A stretch of 64,000 bases of DNA from Clytia hemisphaerica (lineage: Eukaryota; Cnidaria; Hydrozoa; Leptothecata; Clytiidae), in assembly GCA_902728285.1 (NCBI GenBank), contig CACVBU010000918.1:143086-207085 (forward strand). The letters are read 5' to 3'. A program made the translations under genes and the position numbers. Under the pieces are notes generated by a model. It was not told the origin of the DNA and did no database searches. It saw nothing but the letters and a program-made list of their open reading frames with translations. Positions 5,477-61,317 of this stretch are shown piece by piece. The first letter of the stretch is position 1; each line of letters begins with the position of its first letter.

Positions 5477-8400
5477 GTAGAATTTTAATGATTTCACATT
5501 ACTTTATAATATCATATTCGTGCAGTGATCTCTAGCTTAGGTTTGGGCCTATTCACACTATGACAAGGTGTATGTCTGTCTGTCTGTCTGTCTGTCTTAC
5601 GATATTACTGTGTGATTATTAAATTTTTCTGAAATTCTTCGAATATCATCTCAGGGCAGTCAAGAAAATTCACCATTCTTTATACATGGTTTTTTAATAC
5701 TTTTGGTGAGGGTAAAATATTTTTAAGAATTTAACAAAATTTGGTTTTTTTTACAATTATTGAAAACTTTTATAATAAAATTATAAATTTACAGATAGTC
5801 CAACTCAGTTACCAGCCACAACTCTCTCTACACCGGCCAGTTGTACTCCACCGTGTCTCTATATCACTAACATCACAAGCGTACTACGTCTCCGGTTAAA
5901 CAGTACGACCGGTAAACGGTACAGCGAATCAGCACAAGCCGAAACGTTATTCCAATCCAGCGGACATATCCGTTCTCTAGAAATCGACTCGCATAACAAG
6001 AAAGTCTTTTGGGGTGATTTCCGTTATCATACTATCAATTGCAGTGATCTGGATGGTGGAAACCGTAAATCGGTATTGACATATGCTATCGGATACGCCC
6101 AAGGTATTTCGGCAGATTGGACTTCCAATAATGTTTATTGGACGGACAGTTTAATGCACTTGGTCGAAGTGGCGGACTATGAAGGCAAACATAGAAAAGT
6201 TTTATTCGCTTTGGACAAAGAATCAGAACCGCGTGGCATTCTGGCTAACCCGAAATCAAGGTATACTTTTAATCTTTTGCAGTATCCGTTGCTTCTTAAT
6301 TCTATAACTAATGTGAAATCTAATACTACAAGTCTACTAGATGTTTTTTATAAGAACAAACTATTTAAAAACTAGGCTTCGATGGCCAAATTATCAAGAA
6401 CAACTCAAGAACATTTTAAGGCTCCATCTGATTTTTTAGGGAATGGACATAAATACTCGTACAAAATGGCAAAAATAAGAACATGTTAGGAACATTCTTA
6501 AGGCTTAAAACTCAAAAATCAAAATGTTAAGAAAATCGAAAGACTTCAACAATTTTGGGTGCTCTTATAAAAAAACGTAAACATACTTGATTAAGTTGTC
6601 TCTGAATCTGAAACCTCTGAGTATATATTTATGCTTCGATTTATGGAGATTTAAATAACTTTTTTTGAAGATTCTCTCGATATGAAATTAATCAGTGGAA
6701 GTAGACAATCTTGTTTGTAGCTGATTATTTCAGCTAGACTAATAAACATTAAATATATTTCATAGATAAATTCATGGAATTGGGTAGTTGTTATTCGAGC
6801 TAGACAACTACATGGTAGAAACACGAAATTAAGGTTGCAAAATGATGTTTATTTGAGATCGGTTTGTCTCGATTATAGTAATCGATGATTTGTCTTTTCT
6901 CTTACAGACATCTTTTTTGGACTGATTGGGGTAAAGAGCCGAAAATTGAAAGAAGCACATTGCACGGTACCGATCGAGTTGCCATAGTTACCAAAAATCT
7001 AACATGGCCCAACGATCTGGCTATAGATCATACGTCAGAACGTCTCTACTGGGTAGATGCGAAATATGACTATTTGTACTCAGTTGATTATGATGGTAAA
7101 AACATGAAGCTTCACTATGAGCTCATGTTTAATCAAGGCATTGTACATCCTTATAGTCTCGCTTATTCAACAAAAAATCATGCGATTTATTTGTCTGATT
7201 GGCAAACTGATCGAGTTTACGTAGACACCCTTATGGATGGACATAATGTGACGTCAGTATTTCAGAATCGAGGCAAACAAAAGAATATTGGTCAAATCCG
7301 ATTACATGAGGATTACACTGACGCTGGAAGTATGAAGTTTTCTTATTTTAAAAATTTCTTCCCCAGGAAAATGACCTACAATATCAGCCCCACTCGGAAA
7401 TTGAATCTAGTTTTACCCCTATTTCAAATTCAATGGAAGATAATTTTACTCTAAAACCATCATTTTGAATTAGAAACATAATATTTATGCCCATTGGGAT
7501 TTCGATAGTAATTTTCATTCCCACTGTGGGATAGAGTCCCACCTGGGCTGTGAGACAGTGGTGTAGATGTCTGCTAAGAATGATATTTTCATTTCAGTAA
7601 CCAAACCATGTGCAACGAATCGATGCTCGCATATGTGTTTCAATGCTGGTCAAACATACAAATGTGGATGTCCTACTGGTCAGTATGAAAAAATGATCTG
7701 TTCTAATTATTTAAGAATTTTCAAACTGTTTTAACCCTTTTGCCAAAAGTGGTGTTTTCTACCACCAAAAAATTAAACCACGCCTGTATCAGTAACCCGG
7801 TCAGATCCGCCCGTTTAACCCAGTCAAAATTAATAGAAATTCTCTCAATTCTCATTTTTCAAAGTAAAAAAAAACCGTTGTGAATAGCACAAGTCAAGGG
7901 ATACATACTGTATTAGGATACTTCTTTAAGTCTAAATCCACTTGGTCATTTTAAGACATCTAAAATCAGTGACACACGGCTTTGAACCTAAACTATTCCA
8001 AACAGTGAAGAAATGTCTTATCACCGTGTCTCAATTTTTCTACTTTCCTTTTTATAGAACCATGTTTATATTTTTCTATGTCTCTCGTTTCGAGTTAACT
8101 AACTCGGTTTTTTCGTACATAAGTTTTCGAGTTAACTATTATTCAAACCCTCACTTATCATAAAATTTTCGTTAACTCGAAGTTGGACGCTCTTCCCTCA
8201 ATGTTTCTCTCTTCTTTAACAGGTTGGGAATTAAGCAGTGATGACGAAGTTTGTGTTGAATCGAAACGTTCTTACGAAATTTATTTTGCGGACAGTTTCG
8301 CTAACACGGTCAATCATTTGGTCAAATATGAAGGACAAGATGGATTCTCCATTAAACCTTTACCAAACATCACACACGAGGGATTGCAAAGTCCTCTTGC

Positions 8401-11400: not shown

Positions 11401-14400
11401 GAAAAAACTATGGGAGGGAAGAGATCATGAAAGGTTTTAGGTGCAGATTGGTTAGATTATATTAGCCTAGAAATCTAAGCCAGATTGATTCAGTCACTCG
11501 GTAAAATCTGATGGTAATTTGTGACTGAGCATCAGTTTTTCAAGGCAAAATTCCGTACATCGTAAAAATCGTTAAAGCACCGATAACGCTATATTGCCGA
11601 CATCTGTATCTTGGCCTTGTAAAAACTGGCTTGGTTAATCAGGCTAAGATTATATCTAATTTATCTGTTTATCATTACATTGGTTCTCTATAAGGCCTGG
11701 GTCCTTATATTATAAAGATTCAAAGTGTTTCACGGGAATAACCCGTTAACAAACTTCCTACCAAGTTCGTTACCTATCAGTAGAGAACACTTTTGTATAC
11801 GATAAGAGATCAAGACTAGTAAACAACATCGTTGCTCACCACATATGTAATTGTTTATTCTAAACCATTCTCCACTGCCAGTTTATTTTTTTATAAGGAC
11901 GTGTTCGTGTTCTGTGCCCTAGAAAAAGGCGTCAATATAGAACTAGTCCTTGAATTTTTGGACCTACCCCGGTGGGGTTGAGGTCCTATAAATTAACCCA
12001 TGTTCGTTCGTTAGTTAGTGTGTTAGTTACCAGCTTTTCTCGAGATTGGCTCATTAGTTTTTTTTTAATTTTTGGCACAAAGGTGCATGACCATAAACCC
12101 TCGAATGTGACGGAGCCCGATTTTCGAAAAAAAAAATTGGGGGGCAAATTTGGGCCAAAAAACGGCTTAAAAACGGGTTTTTTGGACTTTGTGAAAAATT
12201 GGATCATTAATTTTTTCTGATTTTTAGCATGAAAGTAGGGTACAATCATAGTTAAAGGATGGCTCAGGAGATTTTAGGAAAAAAATTTTTTGGCTCAAAA
12301 ATCGCATTTTTATCTATAAGAACCACTTTTAATAAGAATACATCAATGTTCTTAGCCATATTATTATTATTATTATTATTATTAGTTTTTTCACGATGAA
12401 AATGTCACGGTGGAGGGTAATTATTTGAGTTTTCTGTAAACACTTATTATTTTTTTGGCTGAAAAACGAATCTTTATCTATAAGAATCACTATTTATGAG
12501 CATACAGTAGATCAATGTTATTAGCTAAATTGTTTTTTTATTATTATTTTTCTAACAGAAGAAAATATCACGGTAGAGTGCGACGGTTTGAGTTTTCTGG
12601 AAACCTTATTTATTAAGCTGTGCATTTTTCTGATAGTTGTTTTTATAAAGAAAAGCGCTTAATAGCTTTTTTATTTCTTTTTCAAAAATCTTTTTCAATA
12701 GTGTTGATAGTTTCTCTCAATAGATATGCTTTCATTTTCTTTATTTTTTTGTATTTTGACCAGTTATGTCTTATGTGTTTCATTGTTTCAATGTTCACTG
12801 ATTAGTTTGATAACCAGGTAGGTCCATAAAAGTATCGCTTGTTGTTTTTAAGAAACGATTTTTCAATTTTTCAGACCACGCATGTACAGTACGAAATGGA
12901 GGATGCAGCCATCATTGTGTAGTGGGACCTTCCAATGGACAACCTAAATGTTTGTGTCCGGACAAAATGTATTTGGAAGCGGACGGAAAAACATGTACAG
13001 ATGAGAGACCAGTAGAGTGTAAGTTGTTTGGTTCTCCTGTCCGCTCGTTCGCTTTCCTGTTCGTTTGCTTGCCTGTTCGTTTGCTTGCCCGCTCGTTCGC
13101 TTGCCCGTTCGTTTGCTTATCTGTTCGTTCGCTTGCCTGTCTGTTCGCTTGCCGTTTCTTTCGCCTGCCCGTTCGGTTGCGTGTTTTTTCGTTTGCTCGC
13201 CTGTTCTTTTGCTTATCTGTTCGATCGCTTGCCTGCTTGTTCGCTTGCCTGTTCTTTCGCCTGCCCGTTCGGTTGCATACCCGTTTGTTTGTTTGCCTGT
13301 TCGTTCGCCAGTCCTTTCTTACTCTTGTCCATTCCTTCGTTCGGAAATTCTTCTACTAAAGTTTTATGGAGCTAATACCTTTTCACAAATAACGGTGATA
13401 CCATGGTGATTGTGTCCCTTGAGACATTAAATGATTCTTTTATGAATAGGAAATAGTTTTAATAAAATCCGCTCGGAGTTAATCACCATGAAAATAATTT
13501 CGAAACGAGGCAAGTGATGTTCGTGACGTAATTTATGAAAAGGTCTATAAGTAAACATGAGATTGATGCGAGTTTGTACAGTAATACAAAAGGCCAGTTA
13601 TGTATGGGAGCTAACCACTTCATTGATTACTTACTTTTGGTTGTCCTTGATAGTCTGGGTTAACTCTTACAGGGTGAAGTAATACCAGGGGTTAAAGTTT
13701 TATCGTGATTGGTTAAGGTGTTTATCAAGTACATTCTTAAAAATTATTTACTGGAAATTTGTATTTTGTATACTTTTTCATTCAGATGTTTGTCCAGCCA
13801 ACAATGAAGTGGGTGCTTGCATATACGACCCGTTGAAGAACTGTCTGGACAACAAAGAATGCAATGATGGGAAAATGTGTTGCAGTCGTGGTTGTGGTAG
13901 CGAGTGTGTTCAATCAAGTAAGTTTTTTGTGATGGAAAAGAGGTTTTTCATGTTATGTAACTTATGTCATTAGGAAGCGAACGTTCGATTTGCGTAAGGT
14001 ATCGCCTTTACAGATTCGAACGTTTTTTGCTTCCATAATGGCGGAAATTACGTAACTTGACAAAACATGGAAAACTTCTATAGATTGATATATTAAGTAG
14101 ACTACCAAATAGTCTATTTTAAACGAGGAGAAGAGTTTTGGAAGGACAACTCTTTTGAGTCTTTTGGATTTTTCCCAAAGTGTTAGCTTTGGACTATTTT
14201 GTCGATTTTCCGACCGCTTATTGAGGTACGCTTTCCAGTTATCACCGAAATTCCAGAAACTTACCGGCTTTTCATCTTTTAGATTAGCGAACAATCTCAT
14301 TGACCAGTATTTCCCAGGCTTTCTTGAATGCCCCCTGTTGGCATAAAGTTTATCTAGAATAGCGCAATTTTATCACCATCGTATTGGAATATTGTTAAAA

Positions 14401-20400: not shown

Positions 20401-23400
20401 CAAAAAAAATTTTCCAAAAAATTGATGACGTCAGCATTTTGTTAGAAAAAACGAAAATTGCTGATTAGTGCTGACGTCATCAATTTTTTGAATTTTTTTT
20501 TTTTTGGAAATTAAGGACATTTATCCACCCTGCCTTCGTACAAAATTTGGGCTCATTTCAATAAATAATCCAGGAGATATTAGTATTTCAAATCTTGGCT
20601 GACGTCAGCAAAAAGTGTTTTGCTTTAAATTTCCAAAAATGGCTGAAACAGAATTTTTGGCCCAGGACTTTTTGGAAATGTATTAATATGAAGAGTAAAA
20701 ATAACGAAAAATTTTCCCATAAAAAGGGGTGGAACAACTGGCCGTCACGGCCGTCACGACTTATCGAATTTTTTGCACAGGCCGTAACTTGCCTGTTTTC
20801 GAATTCAAATTAAGAAAATTTCGAGTTATGAAGTAAAGTTTAAAGAAAGGAATTGTTAACTGAAGAGGTTCGAGTTAAAGAGACTCCACTGTCTTATAGA
20901 GAGAACCTACTTTACTATTGTAGCATATCGTCTATCTTTGAAATCCATTTCGGAGACGCTTTAACCAATCTTACTTATTTTCTTTTTTTTTAGAATCCAA
21001 TATCGTGAAAATGGTTTTGGAAAGCTCTACACCGGTATGTTGAAGTTTTTGGGAACTGTTGGAATGCAATATGGCTTTTCATGCATTATATTGCTTCTAG
21101 AAATCTAATGATGGGCAAAAGTCAATTTCTCTAAGTCGGTAGTTCCAGTTTTAAAGCTCACTTGCTTTAAGTTGGCATTATTTTTTGCTTACTGTATGGA
21201 TACCATGTTATCGTAATAAGACTGTTTCCCTTAAGGTGGTATCCACATAGTACTTAGAGGGACATAACAGTACTTGCGAAATTTGTAAACAAACTGTATG
21301 CAGCGGATACAAAATCAAAACAAATGTCACATGTCAAAATAAAAAATCAAACCAAATATGCCTAATTTTGATTGTTCAATTGTCTTACAAGTTTGTTTTG
21401 GATTTTAATTGTTCTCTTTAATGACACGTGGTTCGCGCAATGTTTACATTTTACTACTTTTATGTCCCTTTAAAGCGAATGGATTTTGAACATCTAAGTT
21501 GAATGTGTTCACATTATAAAAGTAAGAATTGAGACTTCATGGTGTTAATATTGGCAATAACTGCATAGAAAAAGACGTTGATTCCACAAACCAGGAGTGG
21601 GGACTTGAAATAGACCAGGAGTTGAAATCCCCTTCCATTCTCTAGGTTATGATTTATTCATCCTTATTCAGCCTATTGACTTATGCACCCAGTTATGCTA
21701 GACCTCTCACTGTAAAGATGAGTTGACGATAATTTAATATCTAGTTATCATAGTTATGTTAAGTCGGCTAAATGTCTGTTGGGTAAATAACCGCTTGGTG
21801 AAAGGTCTGGGTACAGTCGGGGAAAGCTCCACTCGGGTAAATGTCCGTTCGGGAGACGGCCGTCAGTAAAATATCATTTCCATCTATAATATAATCTTTT
21901 ATTTAGGTGACGGTTGAAGAATTCAAAGAGACAATGAAAAAGACATTGATTGATTATTGTGAAGATTTCAAATGTGAATCGAAAAGTGATGTCAGCAAAA
22001 AGAGAAAGTAAGACCATTTACAATTCTTTTTTTTTTAAGATTTGCTAATTCAAGGAGTATTTTTGAGTTTCACTTTCTGAAACACAATCAAATTCTAATG
22101 TCGTACTCGTACGATAAACTTCCCACGTGTCTATCACATGATCAATGAAACAGTGTAACACAAAACCTTTAATAAAAAATATTTCTTATCTTCATAGGCG
22201 ACGTCGTTCTGTGCCGGTGTCCTACATCAAAGATATCGTCATTTTTGATTTCATTACCGATAACAAACGTCAAACGGTCACATTTGCCGTTTTATATGCC
22301 GACAAAACAGGTCAATTGACGACTTTAAGTAGCGCTCATATTAAAGAAGGTATTTCCACGGATGATGATGCGGACCATTTATTCAATGCACAGACTGGTA
22401 AAATTCAATTCTTGGATGTCTCGACACCACGCGGCCGCACGAGAAGTAATTCGCGTGTTAACCTTGCAGTAGGATTGATCATTGCTTGTATCATTTTGGT
22501 CATCCTGGTCATGGCGGCTTGGTACATTAAGAAAAAGTAAGCATTTTTGACTGGAGTTCACTGCCTTGGGCTTTTCCAGAAAAGAATTAAATATTCGGGT
22601 GGGGATGTAACAATTCTCTTGAAACTCACCCCCGAACATTGTGACTTCTGGTCCCCGGACAATAGGTCTAATTCCCCAGACAAGCATCAGTTGACATCCG
22701 GACATTCAAAGTTACCTCCCAACAGAGAAAATTCATCCCCTCCCGGCCCGGACAAGGCCGATGTTGTAGATTTACCACTACCCCTTGGCATCATATCATC
22801 ATATAATCATCAGCCCCTCCCCCCATGGACGAACATTTTGTGGAAGAGGCCCTTAAACTCTTATTCTTGAACAAGTATGTTTTCAATATGTCCAGAAAAG
22901 CAGATCAATTGTTTCAAATTTGATCCATGAGAATGAAAATCAGTAAAAATTTGTGAAAATCTCCTGTACTTAGATCTGTCCAAAATTATGAACATGACTG
23001 ATCAATATAAGTTACTTATCAACCGTTCATTTTACAGGCGATTATTTACAAAAGAAGCTCCTACAACATGTGGTGCTAACGAACTCGGTCCAGTCTCTTT
23101 CGAAAACCGTCTCTATGATGATCTCCATAGTGACAAAGTTCAATTACCGGAAAGCAATAACCGCCCAGCTGTCGAACAAAACCATTACACGACACCACAA
23201 GAAGCGGGCGTTTCAACTTCCCTTGGCGAATACGCCTCACCCATGCCACTTCCTGCTACCCTTGGAGATTATGCTGAAATAGCAGGCGCCAAGTTCCCGC
23301 CTGCTGAGGGCGCTACTGTAGGGGCGGTTTATGAAGAACCAGATATCAAAAAGGCACCACCACAACGAGATTGGGTCCAATTCACCGATGATGGCGATAA

Positions 23401-28566: not shown

Positions 28567-28642
28567 AATGTAAAAAAAAAATCATAAATTCCGGGTTAGC
28601 CTCGGAAATCTGAGTTACCCAAATGAAACACAAGTTAATTGA

Positions 28643-28845
28643 ATCAAGTGAGCCGAGTACTATCAAGTTAGCTGAGTAGTGTCAAGTTAGCTGAGTAATA
28701 TCAAGTTAGCCGAGTAATATCAAGTTAGCTGAGTAATATCAAGTTAGCTGAGTAATATCAAGTTAGCTGAGTAGTATCAAGTGAGCCGAGTAATATCAAG
28801 TGAGCCGAGTAATATCAAGTGAGCCGAGTAGTATCAATTGAGCCA
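28643..28845. repeat. 19-bp tandem satellite
   Basis: About eleven consecutive units of TATCAAGTTAGCTGAGTAA with small variations (GTGAGCCGAG in the later units). The units are contiguous, with no unique spacers between them. Confidence 0.88.
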
Positions 28846-29291
28846 ACTGAGTAAAACAAAGTATTCCAAGTGTATTCTGGTGAGCCAAGTGAATCGGGGG
28901 GAATCCTTTAAATCTGAGTTAACTGTGTAAATCCAAGTATCTAATGTAAATCCAGATTGACCAGAGTAGCTATACACTAAATGATGTGGACTTGATGAAC
29001 CCTGAAAAATAAAAACAAAAACAAAATTACCCAAACAGTCGTGTTCAACTGGAGTATACTACCATGTTCATAAATCGTAAAGCTCAAGTGCAGCGTAAGC
29101 TTGTTCCAAGTTCTGGAAGACTTATCATAATTATGTCCACCTGTTAGGAAGATACTTGTTTTTGTTGAAAATTGAGGCGTGCAAGCATTTATAGGTCACA
29201 ATTTTTTCACACAACCTAAAGAACCCCAGATGAAATATGATCATGATGTTTTACAAATACAAGTGAAAATCTCATTTCCAGGGCAGCTACC

Positions 29292-33083: not shown

Positions 33084-35177
33084 CTAACTTTGAAAAATCT
33101 TTTTCAAAGATAATGACATCGATCGAACGGCTTGAAAATTCAAAACTAAGTCCTTCGCAACATCCGATAAGATTGTACCAGGATTAATATACCACGGATT
33201 GTTTGTAGATAGTTTCCAACTGACTTTATCGCAACAGTACTTGTCTCTTAATTCCAAATTTAATCGCTTGGTAACTTTTTTTACAGTATCACTAGAAAAA
33301 CGAATCGTAACAAGCTCTTCCATGATTTCGGAGTTTCCACATTGTTTACAAGAAAAAAGTTTCACACAAATGTTTCGATCAACGTAAAGTTTAACAGTAT
33401 TTTGAAAGCCGATTTCTCTCTTCATTTGATAAAGATACGAATGATCTCCCGGTATCAGATATTCGACAGGACACTGTCTAAGGCGAACTGGAAAACAAAC
33501 TAATTCTGAAACAGCATTAGTCACCTCACTAATAGTCGATGATTCTTTCATTTCAATTCGGTCATCCAACAAATTATAACAATCTATTTCTCTGATTGAC
33601 CATACAGTCAAATTACGTGGTGGCTTTGATACTAAATTTAGAGTCAAGATTCCATCTTTTTTATCGTCAGCGTTGCTTTTGGTCCAAAAGATTTCTGACA
33701 ACATATCGTGGGGCTCAAGTTGATGTCCCTCGCAAAGATAGATTTGCAAATGGTGAGGGATTTTATACTCTTTGTCCACAAAGTTTTCTATGGACGATAA
33801 AGTATTGTGTTCACGAATATCCAAAGTTTTCGTTTTTGTAAGCGATTTCAAAACAAACATTTTCAACCCAACAATCTTGAAAAAATAATTTTCAAGAGGA
33901 TTTATAAGTTCATATTTTCCTGGTACAGGCTGAGGCGTCACTATTTGAATACAGATATTTTCTTGTGGACCAGCCTGACTAAAAAACAAACTATAAAGTT
34001 GTTTCTCTGAATTTACAATCATGCCAGATAGAGATTCAAGATGATATAGGTGATGGGGCAAATTAAATTCTTTTGTGATCTGTGACCTTAGCTCAGTAAA
34101 CCAATCTTGGTTTTGGGTTAAAGGTGGGGTTATATTCTCTAGCGAGATGATCTGATATTTCTCATCTTGAATTTGGATTGAACATATCTGTTTTAAACCA
34201 AGTTCTTTAATTTTTGAACTTAATTCATTAGATTGCGATTGGTTGATCTTGCACATAAGATGTATTACTACCGGACAATCTTTGTCGTTTTTCAAAAGAA
34301 TCTTCAAAATCGATCTCCTATCGCTGACATATTCAGCATCGTGGTAAAGCACCTGATTTTCAACAGGAATTCCGGTTTCTTTTTCAATAAATTCTTTCAA
34401 ACCAACAACAGTACAATCATTAGTCTTTGGATACCATAGAGCTATTTCACGATATTGACTTCCATCATTTTCTCCTTTACAAGTCTTCAATACTCGAACA
34501 TAAGGCAATCGCCGACATAAACTAACTCTCGCATCATAATGAATATTTATTCTTTCAGATTCTGGTTGACTCAACAAACCGACATAAACAACAAAATCTT
34601 TATCAAATAGTCCTGCAATCGACATATGGTATAGCCATGTCTTGGTACTTTCAATAATAACTTCATTGGTGTAGGGTTTACAGTAAAAGAAGACTCTACC
34701 AAATGGAAATCCACTCAAATATTGTCCATCGTTCTTGAAATTGGTGAACGAACACAGCCAAGGTCTTACGTAGTTCCCTTGGTACGTAACAATAGGCTTT
34801 TCATCGTTAACACATACACGAATCCGGGGTAAGTTTATAACATACTTCTTACTCGAACAAGAGTATGAATTGCTCTGAAAATTCGTCTTTTCCCCATTTG
34901 CGTTATAATTGATTCGAAATAATGCACAATAAACAGTACTGGTTGAACTCGAATCCACTGTCCTCCGCTCACTTATTAGATTCTCTTCGTCAAGTAGAAC
35001 TTCAAAGTCGTCACCAGATCTTAAGTAAATGACTGCCTCTACATTTTTGCTTGTTTTTCTTAGGAGTTTTCTTTTTACCTCTTTTACTGTTGTCGGACCA
35101 ACATATGGAATATGCGCTATAGTCTGTTCTGACTTCACATCAATAATTTCCATAGAATTATTTTCACGAAACGCCAT
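33084..35177 (-). CDS. Poly-ubiquitin-like-domain protein, copy 1 (intact)
   Basis: 697 residues in a single coding exon, ATG at 35177. I recognise no named family. Ubiquitin-like beta-grasp units can be read by pattern at about residues 16-90, 242-309 (VGLKEFIEKETGIPVENQVL, then LYHDAEYVSDRRS: close to the helix and second half of ubiquitin), 331-416, 431-518, 523-602 and 605-686. Residues 93-225 are unassigned. The last unit has CKQCG and CC, a possible metal site. No C-terminal Gly-Gly, so it is unlikely to be conjugated as a ubiquitin-like modifier. No signal peptide or TM. A CAG acceptor at 35233-35235 suggests a 5'-UTR intron. It is the only one of four tandem copies that is fully open, so it is the likely working gene. 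Confidence 0.85.
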   Translation of the reverse strand: MAFRENNSMEIIDVKSEQTIAHIPYVGPTTVKEVKRKLLRKTSKNVEAVIYLRSGDDFEVLLDEENLISERRTVDSSSTSTVYCALFRINYNANGEKTNFQSNSYSCSSKKYVINLPRIRVCVNDEKPIVTYQGNYVRPWLCSFTNFKNDGQYLSGFPFGRVFFYCKPYTNEVIIESTKTWLYHMSIAGLFDKDFVVYVGLLSQPESERINIHYDARVSLCRRLPYVRVLKTCKGENDGSQYREIALWYPKTNDCTVVGLKEFIEKETGIPVENQVLYHDAEYVSDRRSILKILLKNDKDCPVVIHLMCKINQSQSNELSSKIKELGLKQICSIQIQDEKYQIISLENITPPLTQNQDWFTELRSQITKEFNLPHHLYHLESLSGMIVNSEKQLYSLFFSQAGPQENICIQIVTPQPVPGKYELINPLENYFFKIVGLKMFVLKSLTKTKTLDIREHNTLSSIENFVDKEYKIPHHLQIYLCEGHQLEPHDMLSEIFWTKSNADDKKDGILTLNLVSKPPRNLTVWSIREIDCYNLLDDRIEMKESSTISEVTNAVSELVCFPVRLRQCPVEYLIPGDHSYLYQMKREIGFQNTVKLYVDRNICVKLFSCKQCGNSEIMEELVTIRFSSDTVKKVTKRLNLELRDKYCCDKVSWKLSTNNPWYINPGTILSDVAKDLVLNFQAVRSMSLSLKKIFQS

Positions 35178-36030: not shown

Positions 36031-38125
36031 TTAACTTTGAAAAATCTTTTTCAAAGATAATGACATCGATCGAACGGCTTGAAAATTCAAAACTAAGTCC
36101 TTCGCAATATCCGATAAGATTGTACCAGGATTAATATGCCGAGGATTGTTTGCAGATAGTTTCCACTCAACTTTACGACAACAGTATCCGTGTCTTAATT
36201 CATTGTTACACTCCTTCAGGGATTCTTTTATCTTTTTACCGTCAGTATCAACGGGGAGAGATTTTTTCTACAATGGACGAGTTTTCCACAGCGTGTACAA
36301 GAGAAAAACTTGACACGGATGCTTCGATATACAAATAATTCAACATGAGGACCAAAAAGCAGATTGTCTTACGATTTGGAAAAGATAACATTCATCATTT
36401 AACATGATGGAAGGTAAGTTTTTCTCGGCTCCTATATGTAAAGGTCGGATTGAATATGAAGCCAGTTTCTGGTATGGAATTTTTGCACGTCAGTAAGGGT
36501 TGAAGTTTCTTTCACTTCGATCGTTTCTGGTAACTCACTTTTGGTATATAAAGGCCCATTTAATTGTACAGTTAAAGTTTTTGGTGATTTTTATATCAGA
36601 TTTAAAATTAAGATTCAATCTTTCTTATCCTGGGCACAACTATTGTTGCAAAATATTTCTAACAGCATGTCATACTTTTCAAGTTGTTTTCCTTTGGATA
36701 AAAAGATTTGCAAATAATCTGGGATTTTATACTCTTTTTCCACAAAGTTTTTAATAGAAGATAAAGTCTTGTATTTACGAAAATCTAAGCTATAAGTCTT
36801 TGTCAGCGATTTCAAAACTATAGTTTTCAACCCAAAAGTCTTGAAATAATAACTCTCGACAATGTTTTCGACTTCTCTTGAAAGAGGTTGAATTGTCACT
36901 AGTCGAAGTCGTATATTTTCTTTGAATGCATCCAGCTTACAAAACATACTATAAAGTTGTTTTTCTGAAATTACCATAAAGCCACTTGTAGATTCTAAAT
37001 GATAAAGATGGGAGGGTAAACTGATGCACAATCTTAGTTTAGTCAACCAATTTTCATTATGGGCCAATTTTGAAATGAAATCTTCAAAAAGTGTCAAGTG
37101 ATGTTTTGCATCTTCGACTGTGATCGAAGATATTGCTTGAATACCAAGTTCCTTTGCTTTGGGACTTATAAATTCATTAGATTGTGATTGGTTGATCTTG
37201 CACATAAGATGTATTACTACCGGACAATCTTTGTCGTTTCTCAAAAGAATCTTCAAAATCGATCTTCCATCACTGATATATTCAGCATCGTGGTAAAGCA
37301 TCTGATTTTCAACAACATTCCGGTTTCTTTTTTTAATAATTCTTTCAAACCAACAACAGTACAATCATTAGTCTTTGGATACCATCGAGCTATTTCACGA
37401 TATTGACTTCCATCATTTTCTCCTTTATAAGTATTCAATACTCGAACGTAAGGCAAGCGCCGACAGAAACTCACCCTCCCATCATAATGAATATTTATTC
37501 TTTCAGATTCTGGTTGACTCAACAGTCCGATATAAACAACAAAATCTTTATCAAATTGTCCTGCAATCGACATATGGTATAGCCATGTTTTGGTATTTTC
37601 GATAATAACTTCATTGGTGTAAGGTTTACAGTAAAAGTAAACTCTACCCAATGGAAATCCACTCAAATATTGTCCATCGTTCTTGAAATTGGTGAACGAA
37701 CACAACCAAGGTCTTAAGTAGTTCCCTTGGTACGTAACAATAGGCTTTTCATCGTTAACACATACACGAATCCGGGGTAAGTTTATAACATAATTCTTAC
37801 TCGAACAAGAGTATGAATTGCTCTGAAAATTCGTCTTTTCCCCATTTGTGTTATAATTGATTCGAAATAATGCACAATACACAGTACTGGTTGAACTCGA
37901 ATCCACTGTCCTCCGCTCACTTATTAGATTCTCTTCGTCAAGTAGAACTTCAAAGTCGTCACCAGATCTTAAGTAAAAGACTGCCTCTACATTTTTGGTT
38001 GTATTTTTCAGCAGTTCTCGTTTTACTTCTTTTACTGTTGTCGGACCAACATATGGAATATGCGCTATAGTCTGTTCTGACTTCACATCAATAATTTCCA
38101 TAGAATTATTTTCACGAAACGCCAT
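36031..38125 (-). pseudogene. Poly-UBL copy 2 (frameshifted, nonsense)
   Basis: Same gene as copy 1 over its whole length. The N-terminal part is open from 38125 to about 37320, where the frame breaks in the second UBL. The reading resumes in another frame to a TGA at 36615-36617, where copy 4 has a Gly codon. The C-terminal part (36031-36614) has several one-base gains in homopolymer runs compared with copy 3. A possible AATAAA on the minus strand lies near 35737. Either a pseudogene or a good copy damaged by consensus errors, but the TGA is not a homopolymer error. Confidence 0.75.
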
Positions 38126-38990: not shown

Positions 38991-41077
38991 TTAACTTTGA
39001 AAAATCTTTTTCAAAGATAATGACATCGATCGAACGGCTTGAAAATTCAAAACTAAGTCCTTCGCAATATCCGATAAGATTGTACCAGGATTAATATGCC
39101 GAGGATTGTTTGCAGATAGTTTCCACTCAACTTTACGACAACAGTATCCGTGTCTTAATTCATTGTTACACTCCTTCAGGGATTCTTTTATCTTTTTACC
39201 GTCAGTATCAACGGGGAGAGATTTTTCTACAATGGACGAGTTTCCACAGCGTGTACAAGAGAAAAACTTGACACGGATGCTTCGATATACAAATAATTCA
39301 ACATGAGGACCAAAAGCAGATTGTCTTACGATTTGGAAAAGATAACATTCATCATTTAACATGATGGAAGGTAAGTTTTTCTCGGCTCCTATATGTAAAG
39401 GTCGGATTGAATATGAAGCCAGTTCTGGTATGGAATTTTGCACGTCAGTAAGGGTTGAAGTTTCTTTCACTTCGATCGTTTCTGGTAACTCACTTTTGGT
39501 ATATAAAGGCCCATTTAATTGTACAGTTAAAGTTTTTGGTGATTTTTATATCAGATTTAAAATTAAGATTCAATCTTTCTTATCCTGGGCACAACTATTG
39601 TTGCAAAATATTTCTAACAGCATGTCATACTTTTCAAGTTGTTTTCCTTTGGATAAAAAGATTTGCAAATAATCTGGGATTTTATACTCTTTTTCCACAA
39701 AGTTTTTAATAGAAGATAAAGTCTTGTATTTACGAAAATCTAAGCTATAAGTCTTTGTCAGCGATTTCAAAACTATAGTTTTCAACCCAAAAGTCTTGAA
39801 ATAAAATAACTCTCGACAATGTTTTCGACTTCTCTTGAAAGAGGTTGAATTGTCACTAGTCGAAGTCGTATATTTTCTTTGAATGCATCCAGCTTACAAA
39901 ACATACTATAAAGTTGTTTTTCTGAAATTACCATAAAGCCACTTGTAGATTCTAAATGATAAAGATGGGAGGGTAAACTGATGCACAATCTTAGTTTAGT
40001 CAACCAATTTTCATTATGGGCCAATTTTGAAATGAAATCTTCAAAAAGTGTCAAGTGATGTTTTGCATCTTCGACTGTGATCGAAGATATTGCTTGAATA
40101 CCAAGTTCCTTTGCTTTGGGACTTATAAATTCATTAGATTGTGATTGGTTGATCTTGCACATAAGATGTATTACTACCGGACAATCTTTGTCGTTTCTCA
40201 AAAGAATCTTCAAAATCGATCTTCCATCACTGATATATTCAGCATCGTGGTAAAGCATCTGATTTTCAACATTCCGGTTTCTTTTTTAATAAATTCTTTC
40301 AAACCAACAACAGTACAATCATTAGTCTTTGGATACCATCGAGCTATTTCACGATATTGACTTCCATCATTTTCTCCTTTATAAGTATTCAATACTCGAA
40401 CGTAAGGCAAGCGCCGACAGAAACTCACCCTCCCATCATAATGAATATTTATTCTTTCAGATTCTGGTTGACTCAACAGTCCGATATAAACAACAAAATC
40501 TTTATCAAATTGTCCTGCAATCGACATATGGTATAGCCATGTTTTGGTATTTTCGATAATAACTTCATTGGTGTAAGGTTTACAGTAAAAGTAAACTCTA
40601 CCCAATGGAAATCCACTCAAATATTGTCCATCGTTCTTGAAATTGGTGAACGAACACAACCAAGGTCTTAAGTAGTTCCCTTGGTACGTAACAATAGGCT
40701 TTTCATCGTTAACACATACACGAATCCGGGGTAAGTTTATAACATAATTCTTACTCGAACAAGAGTATGAATTGCTCTGAAAATTCGTCTTTTCCCCATT
40801 TGTGTTATAATTGATTCGAAATAATGCACAATACACAGTACTGGTTGCTCGAATCCACTGTCCTCCGCTCACTTATTAGATTCTCTTCGTCAAGTAGAAC
40901 TTCAAAGTCGTCACCAGATCTTAAGTAAAAGACTGCCTCTACATTTTTGGTTGTATTTTTCAGCAGTTCTCGTTTTACTTCTTTTACTGTTGTCGGACCA
41001 ACATATGGAATATGCGCTATAGTCTGTTCTGACTTCACATCAATAATTTCCATAGAATTATTTTCACGAAACGCCAT
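38991..41077 (-). pseudogene. Poly-UBL copy 3 (frameshifted, nonsense)
   Basis: Nearly identical to copy 2. It shares the TGA (39570-39572). The frame also breaks near 40845 (two bases fewer than copy 2), near 40268 and near 39802 (two extra bases). The C-terminal 159 residues (38991-39470) are open and keep the CTRCG and CC cysteines. The 5' leader and splice acceptor are as in copies 1 and 2. Confidence 0.75.
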
Positions 41078-41934: not shown

Positions 41935-44178
41935 TTATCTTTGAAAAATCTTTTTCAAAGATAATGACATCGATCGAACGGCTTGAAAATTCAATACTAA
42001 GTCCTTCGCAATATCCGATAAGATTGTACCAGGATTAATATGCCGAGGATTGTTTGCAGATAGTTTCCACTCAACTTTATCGCAACAGTATCCGTGTCTT
42101 AATTCATTGTTACACTCCTTCAGGGATTCTTTTATCTTTTTACCGTCAGTATCAACGGGGAGAGATTTTTCTACAATGGACGAGTTTCCACAGCGTGTAC
42201 AAGAGAAAAACTTGACACGGATGCTTCGATATACAAATAATTCAACACGAGAACCGAAAGCAGATTGTCTTGCGATTTGGAAAAGATAACATTCATCATT
42301 CGACATGTAAGGTGTGTTTTTCTCGGCTCCTATATGTAAAGGTCGGATTGAATATGAAGCAAGTTCTGGTATGGAATTTTGCACGTCAGTAAGGGTTGAA
42401 GTTTCTTTTACTTCAATCGTTTCTGGTAACTCACTTTTAGTATATAAAGGCCCATTTATTAGTACAGTAAAAGTATTTGGTGATTTTGATATCAGATTTA
42501 AAGTTAAGATTCCATCTTTCTTATCCTCAGCACTACTATTGTTGCAAAATATTTCTGACAGCCTGTCATTCTTTTCAAGTTGTTTTCCTTTGGATAAAAA
42601 GATTTGCAAATAATCCGGGATTTTATACTCTTTTTCCACAAAGTTTTTAATAGAAGATAAAGTCTTGTATTTACGAAAATCTAAGCTATTAGTCTTTGTC
42701 AGCGATTTCAAAACTATCGTTTTCAACCCAAAAGTCTTGAAATAATAACTCTCGACAATGCTTTCGACTTCTCTTGAAAGAGGTTGAATTGTCACTAGTC
42801 GAAGTCGTATATTTTCTTTGAATGCATCCAGCTTACAAAACAAACTATAAAGTTGTTTTTCTGAAATTACCATAAAGCCACTTGTAGATTCTAAATGATA
42901 AAGATGGGAGGGTAAACTGATGCACAATCTTAGTTTAGTCAACCAATCTTCATTATGGGCCAATTTTGAAATGAAATCTTCAAAAAGTGTTAAGTGATGT
43001 TTTGCATCTTCGACTGTGATCGAAAATATTGCTTGTATACCAAGTTCCTTTGCTTTGGAAGTTATAAATTCATTACATTGTGATTGGTTGGATTTACACA
43101 TAAGATGTATTACTACCGGACAATCTTTGTCGTTTCTCAAAAGAGTCTTCAAAATCGATCTTCCATCACTAATATATTCAGCATCGTGGTAAAGCACCTG
43201 ATTTTCAACAGGAATTCCGGTTTCTTTTTCAATAAATTCTTTCAAACCAATAACAGTACAATCATTAGTCCTTGGATACCATTGAGTTATTTCACGATAT
43301 TGACTTCCATCATTTTCTCCTTTATAGGTATTCAATACTTGAACGTAAGGCAAGCGCCGACAGAAACTCACCCTCCCATCATAATGAATATTCATTACTT
43401 CAGATTCTGGTTGACTCAACAGGCCGACATAAACAACAAAATCTTTATCAAATAGACGATATCGGCTTAACGAATTCTCCCCGAATGATTACCCATGATG
43501 CATTGCGCAAAAAAATTCAGTAAGTCAATATAGTCCGTGAATTTTTTTGCGCAATGCATCATGGGTAATCATTCGGGGAGAATTTCGTTAAGCCGATATC
43601 GTCTATTGTCCTGCAATCGACATATGGTATAGCCATGTTTTGGTACTTTCAATAATAACTTCATTGGTGTAAGGTTTACAGTAAAAGTAAACTCTACCCA
43701 ATGGAAATCCACTCAAATATTGTCCATCGTTCTTGAAATTGGTGAACGAACACAGCCAAGGTCTTACACAGTTCCTTTGGTACGTAACAATAGGCTTCTG
43801 CTCATCGTTAACAAGCACACGAATTCGGGGTAAGTTTATAACATACTTCTTACTCGAACAAGAGTATGAATTGCTCTGAAAATTCGTCTTTTCCCCATTT
43901 GCGTTATAATTGATTCGAAATAATGCACAATACACAGTACTGGTTGAACTCGAATCCACTGTCCTCCGCTCACTTATTATATTCTCTTCGTCAAGTAGAA
44001 CTTCAAAGTCGTCACCAGATCTTAAGTAAAAGACTGCCTCTACATTTTTGGTTGTATTTTTCAGCAGTTCTCGTTTTATTTCTTTTACTGTTGTCGGACC
44101 AACATATGAAATATGCGATATAGTCTGTTCTGACTTTACATCAATAATTTCCAAAGAATATTTTTCACGAAACGCCAT
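41935..44178 (-). pseudogene. Poly-UBL copy 4, interrupted by a hairpin transposon
   Basis: Open from the ATG at 44178 for 191 codons to a TAG created by the insertion at 43454-43604, then open for 494 residues from 43419 to the stop at 41935. Without the inserted element the frame would be continuous, so this copy was broken recently. It keeps all six ubiquitin-like units and the CTRCG/CC cysteines. Its middle domains are the best template for the type shared by copies 2-4, which differs from copy 1. The upstream flank has diverged from the other three copies and has no obvious splice acceptor. Confidence 0.85.
43454..43604. mobile_element. 151-bp hairpin element inside poly-UBL copy 4
   Basis: Two arms of about 67 bp, beginning AGACGATATCGGCTTAACGA and ending in its inverse, differing by one base, around a loop of about 17 bases. 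The other copies read CAAATTGTCC at this place, so the insertion is exact, with a one- or two-base duplication (T or AT). The near-perfect arms imply a recent insertion. Confidence 0.93.
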
Positions 44179-57313: not shown

Positions 57314-57772
57314 GGGGTAATAACGGGACACTTAAAATGACGGGGTAAAAACGGGACACCCAAAATAAAGAACAAAGACTTAAAAGGATGAACTCAAATT
57401 TATGCCCCTTAAAAGATCATTTATAAGGCTGTAAAAAAAATCCATACTTTGATCAGCTTCATTCCTCTACATCAGAATACACCACGATGTTTCTTGGTGG
57501 TTGAAAACGTCGATTTTTCATTTCTAGAACGCTTTTTTCTCGACTTAGAATAAACGCCGTACTAAATGCAGGCGCTACATGTTTGGGTCATCGAGACTAG
57601 TAAACAACCCTATTTTGACCTGCCCAAAGTCGCAAGTTTGTACAGGGCGCCGTTTTTGAAAAAAAGGTGTCCCGTATTTACCCCGTGAAGATTTTTCTAT
57701 GTTGGGGTAATAACGGGACGCGTCCCGTATTTACCCCAGTCTATATTTGGCGCGCTGGGGTAATCACGGGAC
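57314..57772. repeat. Left subterminal array of six 16-bp motifs
   Basis: GGGGTAANNACGGGAC at 57314-57329, 57342-57357, 57704-57719 and 57757-57772 (forward), and at 57669-57684 and 57722-57737 (reverse). These are probably transposase binding sites; the outermost is part of the terminal repeat. Confidence 0.93.
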
Positions 57773-57980
57773 GCCGTTTCACGCATGTCTAAGCCTCGTT
57801 TTGGTAGAGAGCATGTGTGTGGTCTGAAAATACGATGTCTGTCATTTCTTTCAGAAGATTGTGGTTGAAGAAGAGGGGGAACTTTGTGTGTCAAAAAGTT
57901 GAAATAATTGCTTATCTAAACCTTCTCTCTTTTTCCTAGCAATAAAAAGTAATACAAAAAGTAAAAGTACATAGATACAA

Positions 57981-60677
57981 ATGCCGCGGAATCCAAAACC
58001 TCGCCCGAATCGCCACGAGAAGGCATTGGAAGATGCTATTGCCGAGAGGAAGACACTTGGCACATCTTATCGGGATTTGGCCAATAAGTATAATGTGCCG
58101 AAATCAACGATCGAAAGGCACATTAATAGTAATATTGGAAATCGAGGAAGGAAACCTGTAAGTCAATTTTTTTTTTTAACTGATTCACTACATACCTTAA
58201 GTTAATACCTACCTCGGCCTTTTTGGTGATTAATTTTTATGATTGCTAGTCGTGACAAGCTGTGTTTTTATCTCGATTCTCAGGTTTTTGATGTAAAAGA
58301 AACAGCGGACTTGGTCGAAACAATTGTTACCTTTGCCGACATTGGCTTCGGAATGACCTCCAAAGACATTGGCGAGCTAGTATGTTCTTACGTGGATTAC
58401 AACGACCACGTAAGAGGGAAAAAGGCATTTAACTTCAAAGGACGGAAAGGCTACCCTGGCCCCGATTGGCTCGAAAATTTTGTGAAAGCAAATAACCTCT
58501 CGGCGAAGCAAGCCACAACATTGAGCACAGCACGCTACAATGCGACAAAAAATCCGTTTGTGATCAACCATTTTTATGACTTATTGGAAGACACCATAAA
58601 AAAGCTTAAGATCGAGGACAAGCCTCACTTGATCTGGAACTGTGATGAATCCGGTCTCCCCCATGAGCCAAGCAAATTGAAAATCATCTCAAGAAAAGGT
58701 CAAAAGACATTACTGGTGAGAGGTTCTCTTATTTCAAACATATACATATTTCAATACAAAATTAAAACTCTATATAATTTTTAAGATATGTAATGCTTGA
58801 AAACACATGAATCTTTTGTTCGGCCTCGAGAATTTCGACGTCTTTTCGTGTGCGACGCTGCTCCTGCTTCTGCTTCTGGTTCTCTGAAAAGGAAATAAAA
58901 ACAAAAATTTAATAAAAAAATATTTCTTTATAGGTGAATCCTGGAGCTGACCGTGAAAACACAACCGTAATGGCTGCAGTTTCAGCGACTGGACAAAAAC
59001 TGCCCCCGATGATCGTGTTTGAAGGTGTCCACGTTCAAACTACTTGGCGACCGAATCTTCCCAAGGATCATGAAAATTATCCTTGGCTCTACGCCAACAA
59101 ATCAGGCTGGATGGACTCGAGTACGTTCTATCGCTGGTTTGAGGAATGGGAATCGAAAACCCGCACTTATGATGAAGATGGTAATTTGGAGCCACGTTTG
59201 CTAATATATGATGGCCACCTATCTCACATCTGGTACGGAACGATCGAGTTGGCGCGTAAACAAAAATGTTTCGATTATCAAACTACCAGCCCATACAACC
59301 GACTTGCTTCAACCACTTGACGTGTCAGTTTTCAAGTCCCTGAAGAACCACTGGGCCGACATGCTGTTCAGTCGACTTAAAACCACAAGAAATCGCTTAT
59401 CCAAAGCCGAGTTCTCAAATGCCCTTTGTGATTTGGATTGTTGGAGCAAAGCATTTTCAAAGTCGAATATCACAAACGGCTTTCGAGGATGTGGTATCTT
59501 CCCTCCTAACCGAGAGCAGTACCCAACCAATCGCTTTCACCCTCACCTGAAATCTCGATACGATCTGTGGGTTGCGGAAGGTAAACCTGAATTATCAGCG
59601 GAAGAACTGGATGCACTACTAAATGTCGCAAAGAAAGACGACGAAATGAAAGAACAAGAAGAAAACGAATCAACGCCAAACACACCAACGGCACTAGCAG
59701 AACTCAATCGTAATGGCGTCAAAGGAAAAATCATTTCGTTCTTTGTTCCTGACGAAGACCCAACAGCCATGGAGCGTATCGACACCCCACCTTCATCGTC
59801 TCAAACGAACACACCCGACTCTAACAAGAAATCGTTCAAAGAAGTTGCGTTAAAGGGGGTAGAAGCTATGCAAAACAACACGCCGAAGTCTTCCAAAGCT
59901 CCCGAAACCGTAAAACGTAAGCGAGTCAACCCGATGAGTGAGTTAGTAACTAGCGATGAAAAGTTCCAAAAAATCATTGATGAAGAGAATGCAAAAGAGG
60001 CAAAAAAGAACGCTAAAGAGGCGAAGAAGAAGGAAAAGGAGGAAAAGAAGATCGAAGCTAACAAAGAAAACGCAAAGACGAAGAAAAGAAGTGCAGCCAA
60101 ACGTAAATTAAGTTCGAGCGAGTCAGAAGGTGAGTGGATTGACCAAGACACCGACGACGAGAGTGATTCTGAAAACCGACCCGAGCACAATGATCAATGC
60201 CTTTTCCCACCATCAAACGATCTCGATGGATATCGTTATTTGAAGGATGTATGGGAAGATTTTAATCCTCCTAACGAGGAAAAGGAGCTTCTCGGGAAAG
60301 TGGTCGCCTTTATCTTCTACGATATCAAACAGAAACCGCATCTGTTTGTAGGAAAGATCATTCGACGTTTTATGGTAGATGATAAAGGTCCAGTGAATCA
60401 CATTGAAATTGTTAGTTTTAAGAAAGCCGCTACATCTACGTCCACGATCCTGGAGGAAACCCCTGACCACCTTCAAAAAGATCAGGAACTATGTAAGATA
60501 CATAACATTATCTCTGCCCCTCTAGAGGCTAAAATCATGTCTGGACCGACCGGGCGCGGATCAGGGAAATGGAATATACCAACTTATCCATTAGTTGTAA
60601 AAACCTTCCAAATGGTCAAAGATTTAAAACGACAGGAGGAATATGAACGATTGTTTCCAATTACCACCTCTAAATAA
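57981..60677 (+). CDS. pogo/Tigger-like transposase, three exons, one frameshift
   Basis: Exons 57981-58157, 58284-58715 and 58934-60677, GT-AG, all phase 0. It has an N-terminal psq-type helix-turn-helix (residues 1-51; SYRDLANKYNVPKSTIERHI), then a CENP-B/Tc5-type DNA-binding part (GYPGPDWLENFVKANNLS), then a DDE_1 catalytic core with Asp in CDESGL (about 180), YDGHLSH (about 296) and LLQPLDVSVFK (about 332), a DD35D spacing. The frame slips by one base in the A-run at 59262-59266, between the second and third Asp; with one A fewer the protein would be about 783 residues. The C-terminal third is unusual for the family: a Lys/Glu-rich coil, an acidic Ser-rich patch and a final domain from about 60285. 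It lies fully inside the inverted repeats at 57305 and 61326. Confidence 0.9.
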
Positions 60678-61039
60678 TAAGATGACTGACTACTTGTTCT
60701 TTTTGAGCTTCTATTGCACGAGATGAAATAGTTACTTACCAAGAAACTTTGATGTATATATCGATAGCTCATAAACTTTCTTTATCTTTTTTCCTGAAGC
60801 AAAAAAAACAAAAAAAAACAAATTAGCATTAATGATATACTGGTGGTCTTTTAATATCTTCCCGATCCCGATCCCGATCTTAAGTCAAATGCCTGATTCC
60901 GCCTAAACTGCTTAAGAATTCTCTTTTCTAGGCGATCCTTATATCTAATATATGCATTAAAGACCCTCATTTGTGACATTAAGAAAGTGTTAAGACGTAT
61001 TTTAGATACCTATCAGCATTTAATCAAAGTTTAGTTCAT

Positions 61040-61317
61040 GTCCCGTTTTTACCCCACTGGGCAGAAAACAACGAGGGGTAAATACGGGACGCGTCCCGTT
61101 TTTACCCCGGGGGTGTCCCGTTTTTACCCCAAAATCCGGGGTAATTACGGGACGCATATCCGTGAATATTTTGCGAAAACTAAAAGTCATAATTTTAAAC
61201 CATTAAGAGGGTTGATAGATGACCATTAGAGGGAGTTGCTGGCCAAAAATCATGATTGTAGCTTTTGAAGTTCCTGAGATATGGAAAGGTTCGTCGATTT
61301 CGTCCCGTTTTTACCCC
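61040..61317. repeat. Right subterminal array of six 16-bp motifs
   Basis: GGGGTAANNACGGGAC at 61075-61090 and 61138-61153 (forward), and at 61040-61055, 61093-61108, 61115-61130 and 61302-61317 (reverse). Mirrors the left array in number. Confidence 0.93.

Follow-up and report, generated by a model that had tools for sequence, protein, structure and literature searches.

P0001, a protein encoded by the genome of Clytia hemisphaerica, is almost certainly a tandem array of about seven diverged beta-grasp units. Its gene, referred to as copy A, lies on the minus strand at positions 33084..35177 of the window (the whole stretch of 64,000 nucleotides analysed, C635:143086-207085). It consists of a single exon of 697 codons plus a stop, intact in the assembly and the single open frame found there, in agreement with the intronless 697-residue frame reported in the initial annotation. 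A mitochondrial contig of the assembly has cob and cox1 as neighbours on a single strand, with TGA coding for Trp (table 4) and cox1 reaching the end of the contig, an arrangement of hydroidolinan hydrozoans.

The AlphaFold2 model of P0001, built on 21 alignment rows from its own genome (mean pLDDT 76.8, pTM 0.60), contains the beta-grasp units for which structure prediction had been suggested as a check. Its secondary structure resolves into seven bb-a-b(b) units whose starts are 79-111 residues apart, and each unit was predicted to adopt the beta-grasp fold. From the N-terminus, and all on the minus strand, these are U1 (residues 8-86, 34920..35156), U2 (119-202, 34572..34823), U3 (222-310, 34248..34514), U4 (333-413, 33939..34181, after a linker helix at 317-326), U5 (440-517, 33627..33860), U6 (522-600, 33378..33614) and U7 (601-685, 33123..33377). 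U2 is the weakest, a beta-grasp-like order b-b-a-b-b-a-b seen in the AlphaFold2 secondary structure. A separate model of U7 also supported its beta-grasp fold, and neither U2 nor U4 had a structural match of its own among the matches listed. The best solved-structure match of P0001 was linear tetra-ubiquitin (7yui, Foldseek E 8.4e-18), with the UBL array of USP7 (2ylm, E 4.1e-12, 556 columns, TM by query 0.17, rmsd 20.8 Å), ISG15 and OASL also among the fold matches. Over the whole array no superposition was tight (TM by query no higher than 0.17, rmsd 13-21 Å), so the P0001 units appear to be placed relative to one another differently from those of polyubiquitin and USP7. Viral matches in BFVD, comprising BVDV polyprotein fragments and ubiquitins of Pandoravirus and other giant viruses, were rejected as signs of kinship and read as the general ubiquitin fold; VIA gave no family beyond ubiquitin folds among the matches listed.

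At the sequence level, the Pfam ubiquitin model PF00240 passed marginally against the whole of P0001 (25.7 bits, cut-off 25.4, E 1e-5) and scored higher elsewhere in the family, with 39.7 bits in part of the tandem copy D and 37.6 bits in the paralogue C517. No other domain of P0001 reached its Pfam cut-off, no Pfam model covers the array as a whole, and a scan of the entire frame with E values up to 10 returned neither a peptidase nor an OAS domain. Against PDB sequences, phmmer matched polyubiquitin at residues 437-496, and ubiquitin variants together with FAT10 (a weak match, at 256-325) around 252-325; a family profile found the same matches. The Pfam, PDB-sequence and contig libraries searched thus held no strong full-length match to a named, characterised family, in keeping with the initial view of P0001 as uncharacterised.

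Comparison of the unit profiles with hhalign linked U1 with U3 (79%), U3 with U5 (72%) and U4 with U5 (49%), and likewise U5 (59%) and U3 (47%) with ubiquitin itself; a U6-U7 score was discarded as an artefact of overlapping segments. As a control for chance, each unit profile was compared with human ubiquitin and with 60 shuffles of it. The unit score was reached by no shuffle for U3, U5 and U6, by one for U1, two for U4, nine for U7 and 55 for U2. By sequence alone, U3, U5 and U6 are accordingly firmly ubiquitin-like and U1 and U4 more weakly so, while U2, without sequence support, is placed by its order of strands and helices. The earlier estimate of about six units was thus right to slightly low: the predicted structure gives seven, and the sequence three firm units and two weaker ones, with U2 unsupported.

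The recurring helix T-x3-L-K-x2-I-x5-I-P-x3-Q that had led to this estimate is exact in U3 (256-275) and near-exact in U5 (459-478, with I for L, E for K and V for I), and looser elsewhere. U3 is the clearest ubiquitin-like unit by this motif and coincides with the clearest unit of the initial annotation (242-309). U5, to which the PDB-sequence match, AlphaFold2, the family alignment and the shuffles all point, is the most conserved unit of the family, with a mean pairwise identity of 0.41 and conserved KSLTK and IPxHLQ.

The end of the array departs from that of ubiquitin. As the initial annotation had observed, Gly-Gly is missing; it occurs nowhere in P0001 and terminates not one of 44 ORFs from the family's collected loci (each of at least 200 codons, contained fragments removed). 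In U7, the family alignment conserves Cys610 and Cys613 in 18 of 18 rows, Cys648 in 17 of 17 and Cys649 in 16 of 17 (33231..33350, minus strand), and these four residues probably form a zinc site. In the position of the Gly-Gly tail lies a basic, partly amphipathic helix (residues 687-697, 33087..33119, minus strand) terminating in KKIFQS, which is not a CaaX box; the P0001 tail is short, and the C-terminal end has low pLDDT. Among the 17 tails of the P0001 group surveyed after the last strand (four of the 21 rows, in which that end is missing, were left out), net charge ranges from +2 to +6. Taking for each tail the highest hydrophobic moment among its few 11-residue windows, a choice that flatters the measure, 15 of the 17 rank within the top 5.4% of windows in their protein, the exceptions being L019 and L029. 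Such a basic amphipathic tail may bring P0001 into contact with a membrane. A secreted or membrane-spanning protein was considered and rejected, no hydrophobic segment of P0001 being strong enough for secretion or for spanning a membrane, for which the customary threshold is about 1.6.

A different ending was found in a sister group. L031, a distant relative of 738 codons from stop to stop, returned 44 matches when used as a query in its own genome, mostly long single frames. Fourteen of the 44 family ORFs end in C-x-[IVL]-M (CLIM, CNVM, CRLM, CLLM, CSIM, CIVM, CQVM, CFLM), the box sitting right after the last unit, where ubiquitin has Gly-Gly. In a tree of the 32 ORFs that have U5-U7 (the C517 row being cut from U4 instead of U5), a branch with support 89/82, present in 91% of 200 bootstrap trees, has all 14 CaaM ORFs to one side, and the 16 P0001-side rows form a group at 100/100; the tree carries a warning of long branches meeting. 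L031 and L042 are without a CaaX end, yet fall on the CaaM side. CaaX boxes ending in Met favour farnesylation, and the CaaM ends would be expected to be prenylated. On the L031/CaaM side, each of ten scanned proteins scores above the Pfam threshold for ubiquitin (37.4-79.6 bits), against three of ten in the other set (L031, L033 and C517), in which L019 and L027 match nothing. Several sister-side members among L031/L042 and L046-L058 open, within their first 90 residues, with two or three CxxC pairs (two in several CaaM members), which probably form a zinc ribbon preceding the ubiquitin-like units.

P0001 belongs to a tandem array and to a large family. Three further copies follow on the minus strand: B (36034..38125) and C (38994..41077), nearly identical to each other and both with frameshifts and stops (in-frame in B), and D (41935..44178), interrupted by an insertion. 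The four copies are spaced 2.94-3.1 kb apart and B, C and D look broken; assembly errors may underlie the defects in B and C. The insertion in D is a near-perfect, MITE-like palindrome of about 151 nt (43454..43604, ends read by eye). An intron was rejected here, as the ends are not GT-AG and the sequence is palindromic; it was taken as a MITE-like insertion. In the genome searched (417,433,876 bases, 951 contigs), the family occupies at least 60 places on 37 contigs, a lower bound obtained by merging within 1200 bases the 41, 44 and 38 listed matches of three queries, with the four C635 copies counted as one. Some contigs in this count may be alleles (the C273 and C394 proteins are 97% identical), and ubiquitin-like genes of other kinds may account for the weakest matches. 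Scans of viral_contigs and of the prokaryotic genome_contigs, which start from exact matches to short P0001 peptides and therefore reach close relatives only, gave 3 and 25 pattern matches, none confirmed by tblastn.

A drop in identity and a contrast in dS show the copies to be mosaic, the break falling on a unit boundary. In DNA, A and C517 agree with B, C and D at about 83-100% across approximately the first 320 codons, the lowest values lying at the upstream end and in a single short window; identity is then 53-79% as far as about codon 660 and 95-96% thereafter. A/D protein identity falls at residues 311-340, the U3/U4 linker, and dS rises from 0.117 before the break to 0.599 beyond it. 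Whole units are also gained: C517, of 780 codons, carries an 88-residue tandem duplication of U3 (254/264 nt identical). Two paralogues, L035 and L036 (C308:2.535-2.551 Mb), have GT-AG introns at matching places, as judged by eye; the family's single-exon genes therefore probably arose secondarily, through retroposition or the loss of introns.

Elsewhere in the window, LDL-receptor class B repeats (PF00058, 69 bits) at 6885-7454 are followed by plus-strand ORFs up to 23725, with a transmembrane-like stretch in 22145-22540, which suggests a multi-exon LRP/VLDLR-type receptor gene extending towards 24 kb. An ORF at 12922-13359 with many Leu-Phe-Val-Cys-Leu stretches adjoins a calcium-binding-EGF-like piece and is probably simple-repeat DNA rather than a gene. 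A 19-base tandem repeat array occupies 28605-28889 (consensus like ATCAAGTTAGCTGAGTAAT, about 11 register positions). At 57704-61108 lies a transposon bounded by imperfect inverted repeats (57704-57772 and 61040-61108, 69 nt, 80%), with DDE_1 transposase pieces (PF03184, 38.2 bits, in 59208-60677) and a coding frame split over several ORFs.

Selection was assessed from codon comparisons. dN/dS was below 1 in all 14 computable pairs, two further pairs being saturated; it lay at 0.28-0.44 in 12 of them and was higher in C419 (0.71) and C432/C105 (0.65). In counting tests, purifying selection is apparent in three of five pairs, namely A/C517 (p 4.3e-5), C308a/C16a (p 1.1e-11) and C273/C394 (p 0.0033), and was not significant in C419 (p 0.29) and C432/C105 (p 0.077). 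Taken together, these values argue that copy A is probably a working gene under moderate constraint.

Fold and mechanism taken jointly, the description of P0001 as a cytosolic, non-conjugatable, membrane-held, polyvalent ubiquitin-like array has a little less than an even chance of being right. The mechanism itself, the likeliest of those considered, is put forward more tentatively and by analogy: P0001 may act as a membrane-tethered mimic of a ubiquitin chain that gathers ubiquitin-binding proteins or E2s in the manner of MUB/UBL3, but polyvalently. Briefly, about seven diverged beta-grasp units fused head to tail would reside in the cytosol; the missing Gly-Gly rules out conjugation or polyubiquitin-like maturation. 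Single units would bind readers of the ubiquitin fold, such as ubiquitin receptors, E2 backsides, or kinases and adaptors reading linear ubiquitin. The C-terminal end would hold the array at the membrane, through the basic amphipathic tail in P0001 and a CaaX lipid in the sister group, for which prenylated MUB/UBL3 could serve as a single-unit precedent. A scaffold or decoy role, as suggested initially, is conjectural. In usual ubiquitin signalling, chains are built by enzymes and cut by others; if the mechanism holds, an array that is encoded in the genome, cannot be cleaved and is anchored to a membrane would be a constitutive chain mimic, and paralogues varying in unit number and tail would form a natural series showing which units bind which ubiquitin readers. 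A wider reading, doubtful as it stands, sees a multigene family, perhaps hydrozoan-specific, of membrane-tethered non-conjugatable pseudo-polyubiquitins with four to eight diverged folds. Their conjugation tail would have turned into a CaaM lipid box or a basic helix, their diversity would have arisen by tandem duplication, unit-boundary exchange and whole-unit gain, and they would act as chain mimics in membrane signalling or defence.

Other explanations were weighed against this chain-mimic reading. The units might instead bind pathogen or signalling proteins, as innate-immune effectors in the style of ISG15, OASL and FAT10 diversified by birth and death. Tandem arrays, broken copies, mosaic copies that switch at the U3/U4 linker, the fresh duplication of one unit in C517 and the roughly 60 places fit such a history, as do the ISG15 and OASL fold matches and a weak Pfam match to TBK1_ULD (E 2.4e-4, below cut-off). 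However, fast turnover has other causes, and dN/dS below 1 in 14/14 pairs indicates no whole-gene positive selection, which leaves an immune role unlikely. A stripped-down relative of the regulatory UBL array of USP7, binding a separate deubiquitinase or its substrates rather than mimicking chains, appears less likely again: the frame lacks a peptidase domain, the sequence likeness is to ubiquitin and polyubiquitin rather than to USP7, and the structural superposition is loose.

That the family consists mostly of non-functional retrocopies or passengers of mobile DNA, its single-exon genes being decaying processed copies, is very improbable. The matching GT-AG introns of L035/L036 do imply intron loss in the ancestry of the single-exon copies, and three of the four tandem copies are broken, but members as distant as 25-30% identity still keep open frames of 400-780 codons, three of five pairs show purifying selection, the Cys4 set and the CaaM ends are conserved, and the Pfam scan of the P0001 frame revealed no mobile-element domain. 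The head-to-tail ubiquitin-like units and the best match to linear polyubiquitin speak for a conjugatable or processed modifier precursor, but with Gly-Gly absent from P0001 and from the ends of the 44 family ORFs, a conjugatable modifier was rejected, and we regard this reading as extremely improbable.

Linear (Met1) polyubiquitin, the best match in both structure and sequence, shares ubiquitin folds joined head to tail, but the units of P0001 have diverged to the edge of recognition and lack Gly-Gly at their junctions and end. ISG15, FAT10 and the UBL pair of OASL are likewise diverged tandem UBLs, the first and last matching in fold and FAT10 weakly in sequence; each has two units against about seven in P0001. 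ISG15 and FAT10 conjugate through Gly-Gly, and OASL bears an OAS domain, a nucleotidyltransferase not found in P0001. The initial annotation's limit of two diverged units for known multi-UBL proteins does not hold, since the USP7 array (HUBL), with its 556-column match to P0001, comprises five; other USPs with multiple UBLs exist. HUBL resembles P0001 as a tandem of diverged, non-conjugatable units, but USP7 carries a peptidase domain, the units of P0001 appear more loosely arranged, and the sequence of P0001 is nearer to ubiquitin than to USP7.

The exchange of the ubiquitin tail for a membrane anchor is, to our knowledge, otherwise known only from single-domain MUB/UBL3, and the family would illustrate a route for it, by way of CaaM or a basic helix. 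As reported in PMC4996978, MUB has no Gly-Gly, is prenylated at a CaaX box and keeps group VI/Ube2D E2s at the plasma membrane by binding their backside. MUB/UBL3 and P0001 have in common the ubiquitin fold without Gly-Gly, and the sister group of P0001 shares the CaaX-type box after the last unit; the differences are one unit against about seven, and a basic helix rather than a CaaX box at the end of P0001. Tandem non-conjugatable UBL arrays (USP7) and prenylated single UBLs (MUB/UBL3) are thus known already. Searches of the open-licence PMC literature listed no multi-UBL family of the P0001 kind; by those searches and Pfam, what is apparently new is a stand-alone array of about seven units, amplified to loci numbering in the dozens, whose last unit carries the Cys4 set in one group and whose ends are CaaM boxes in another.
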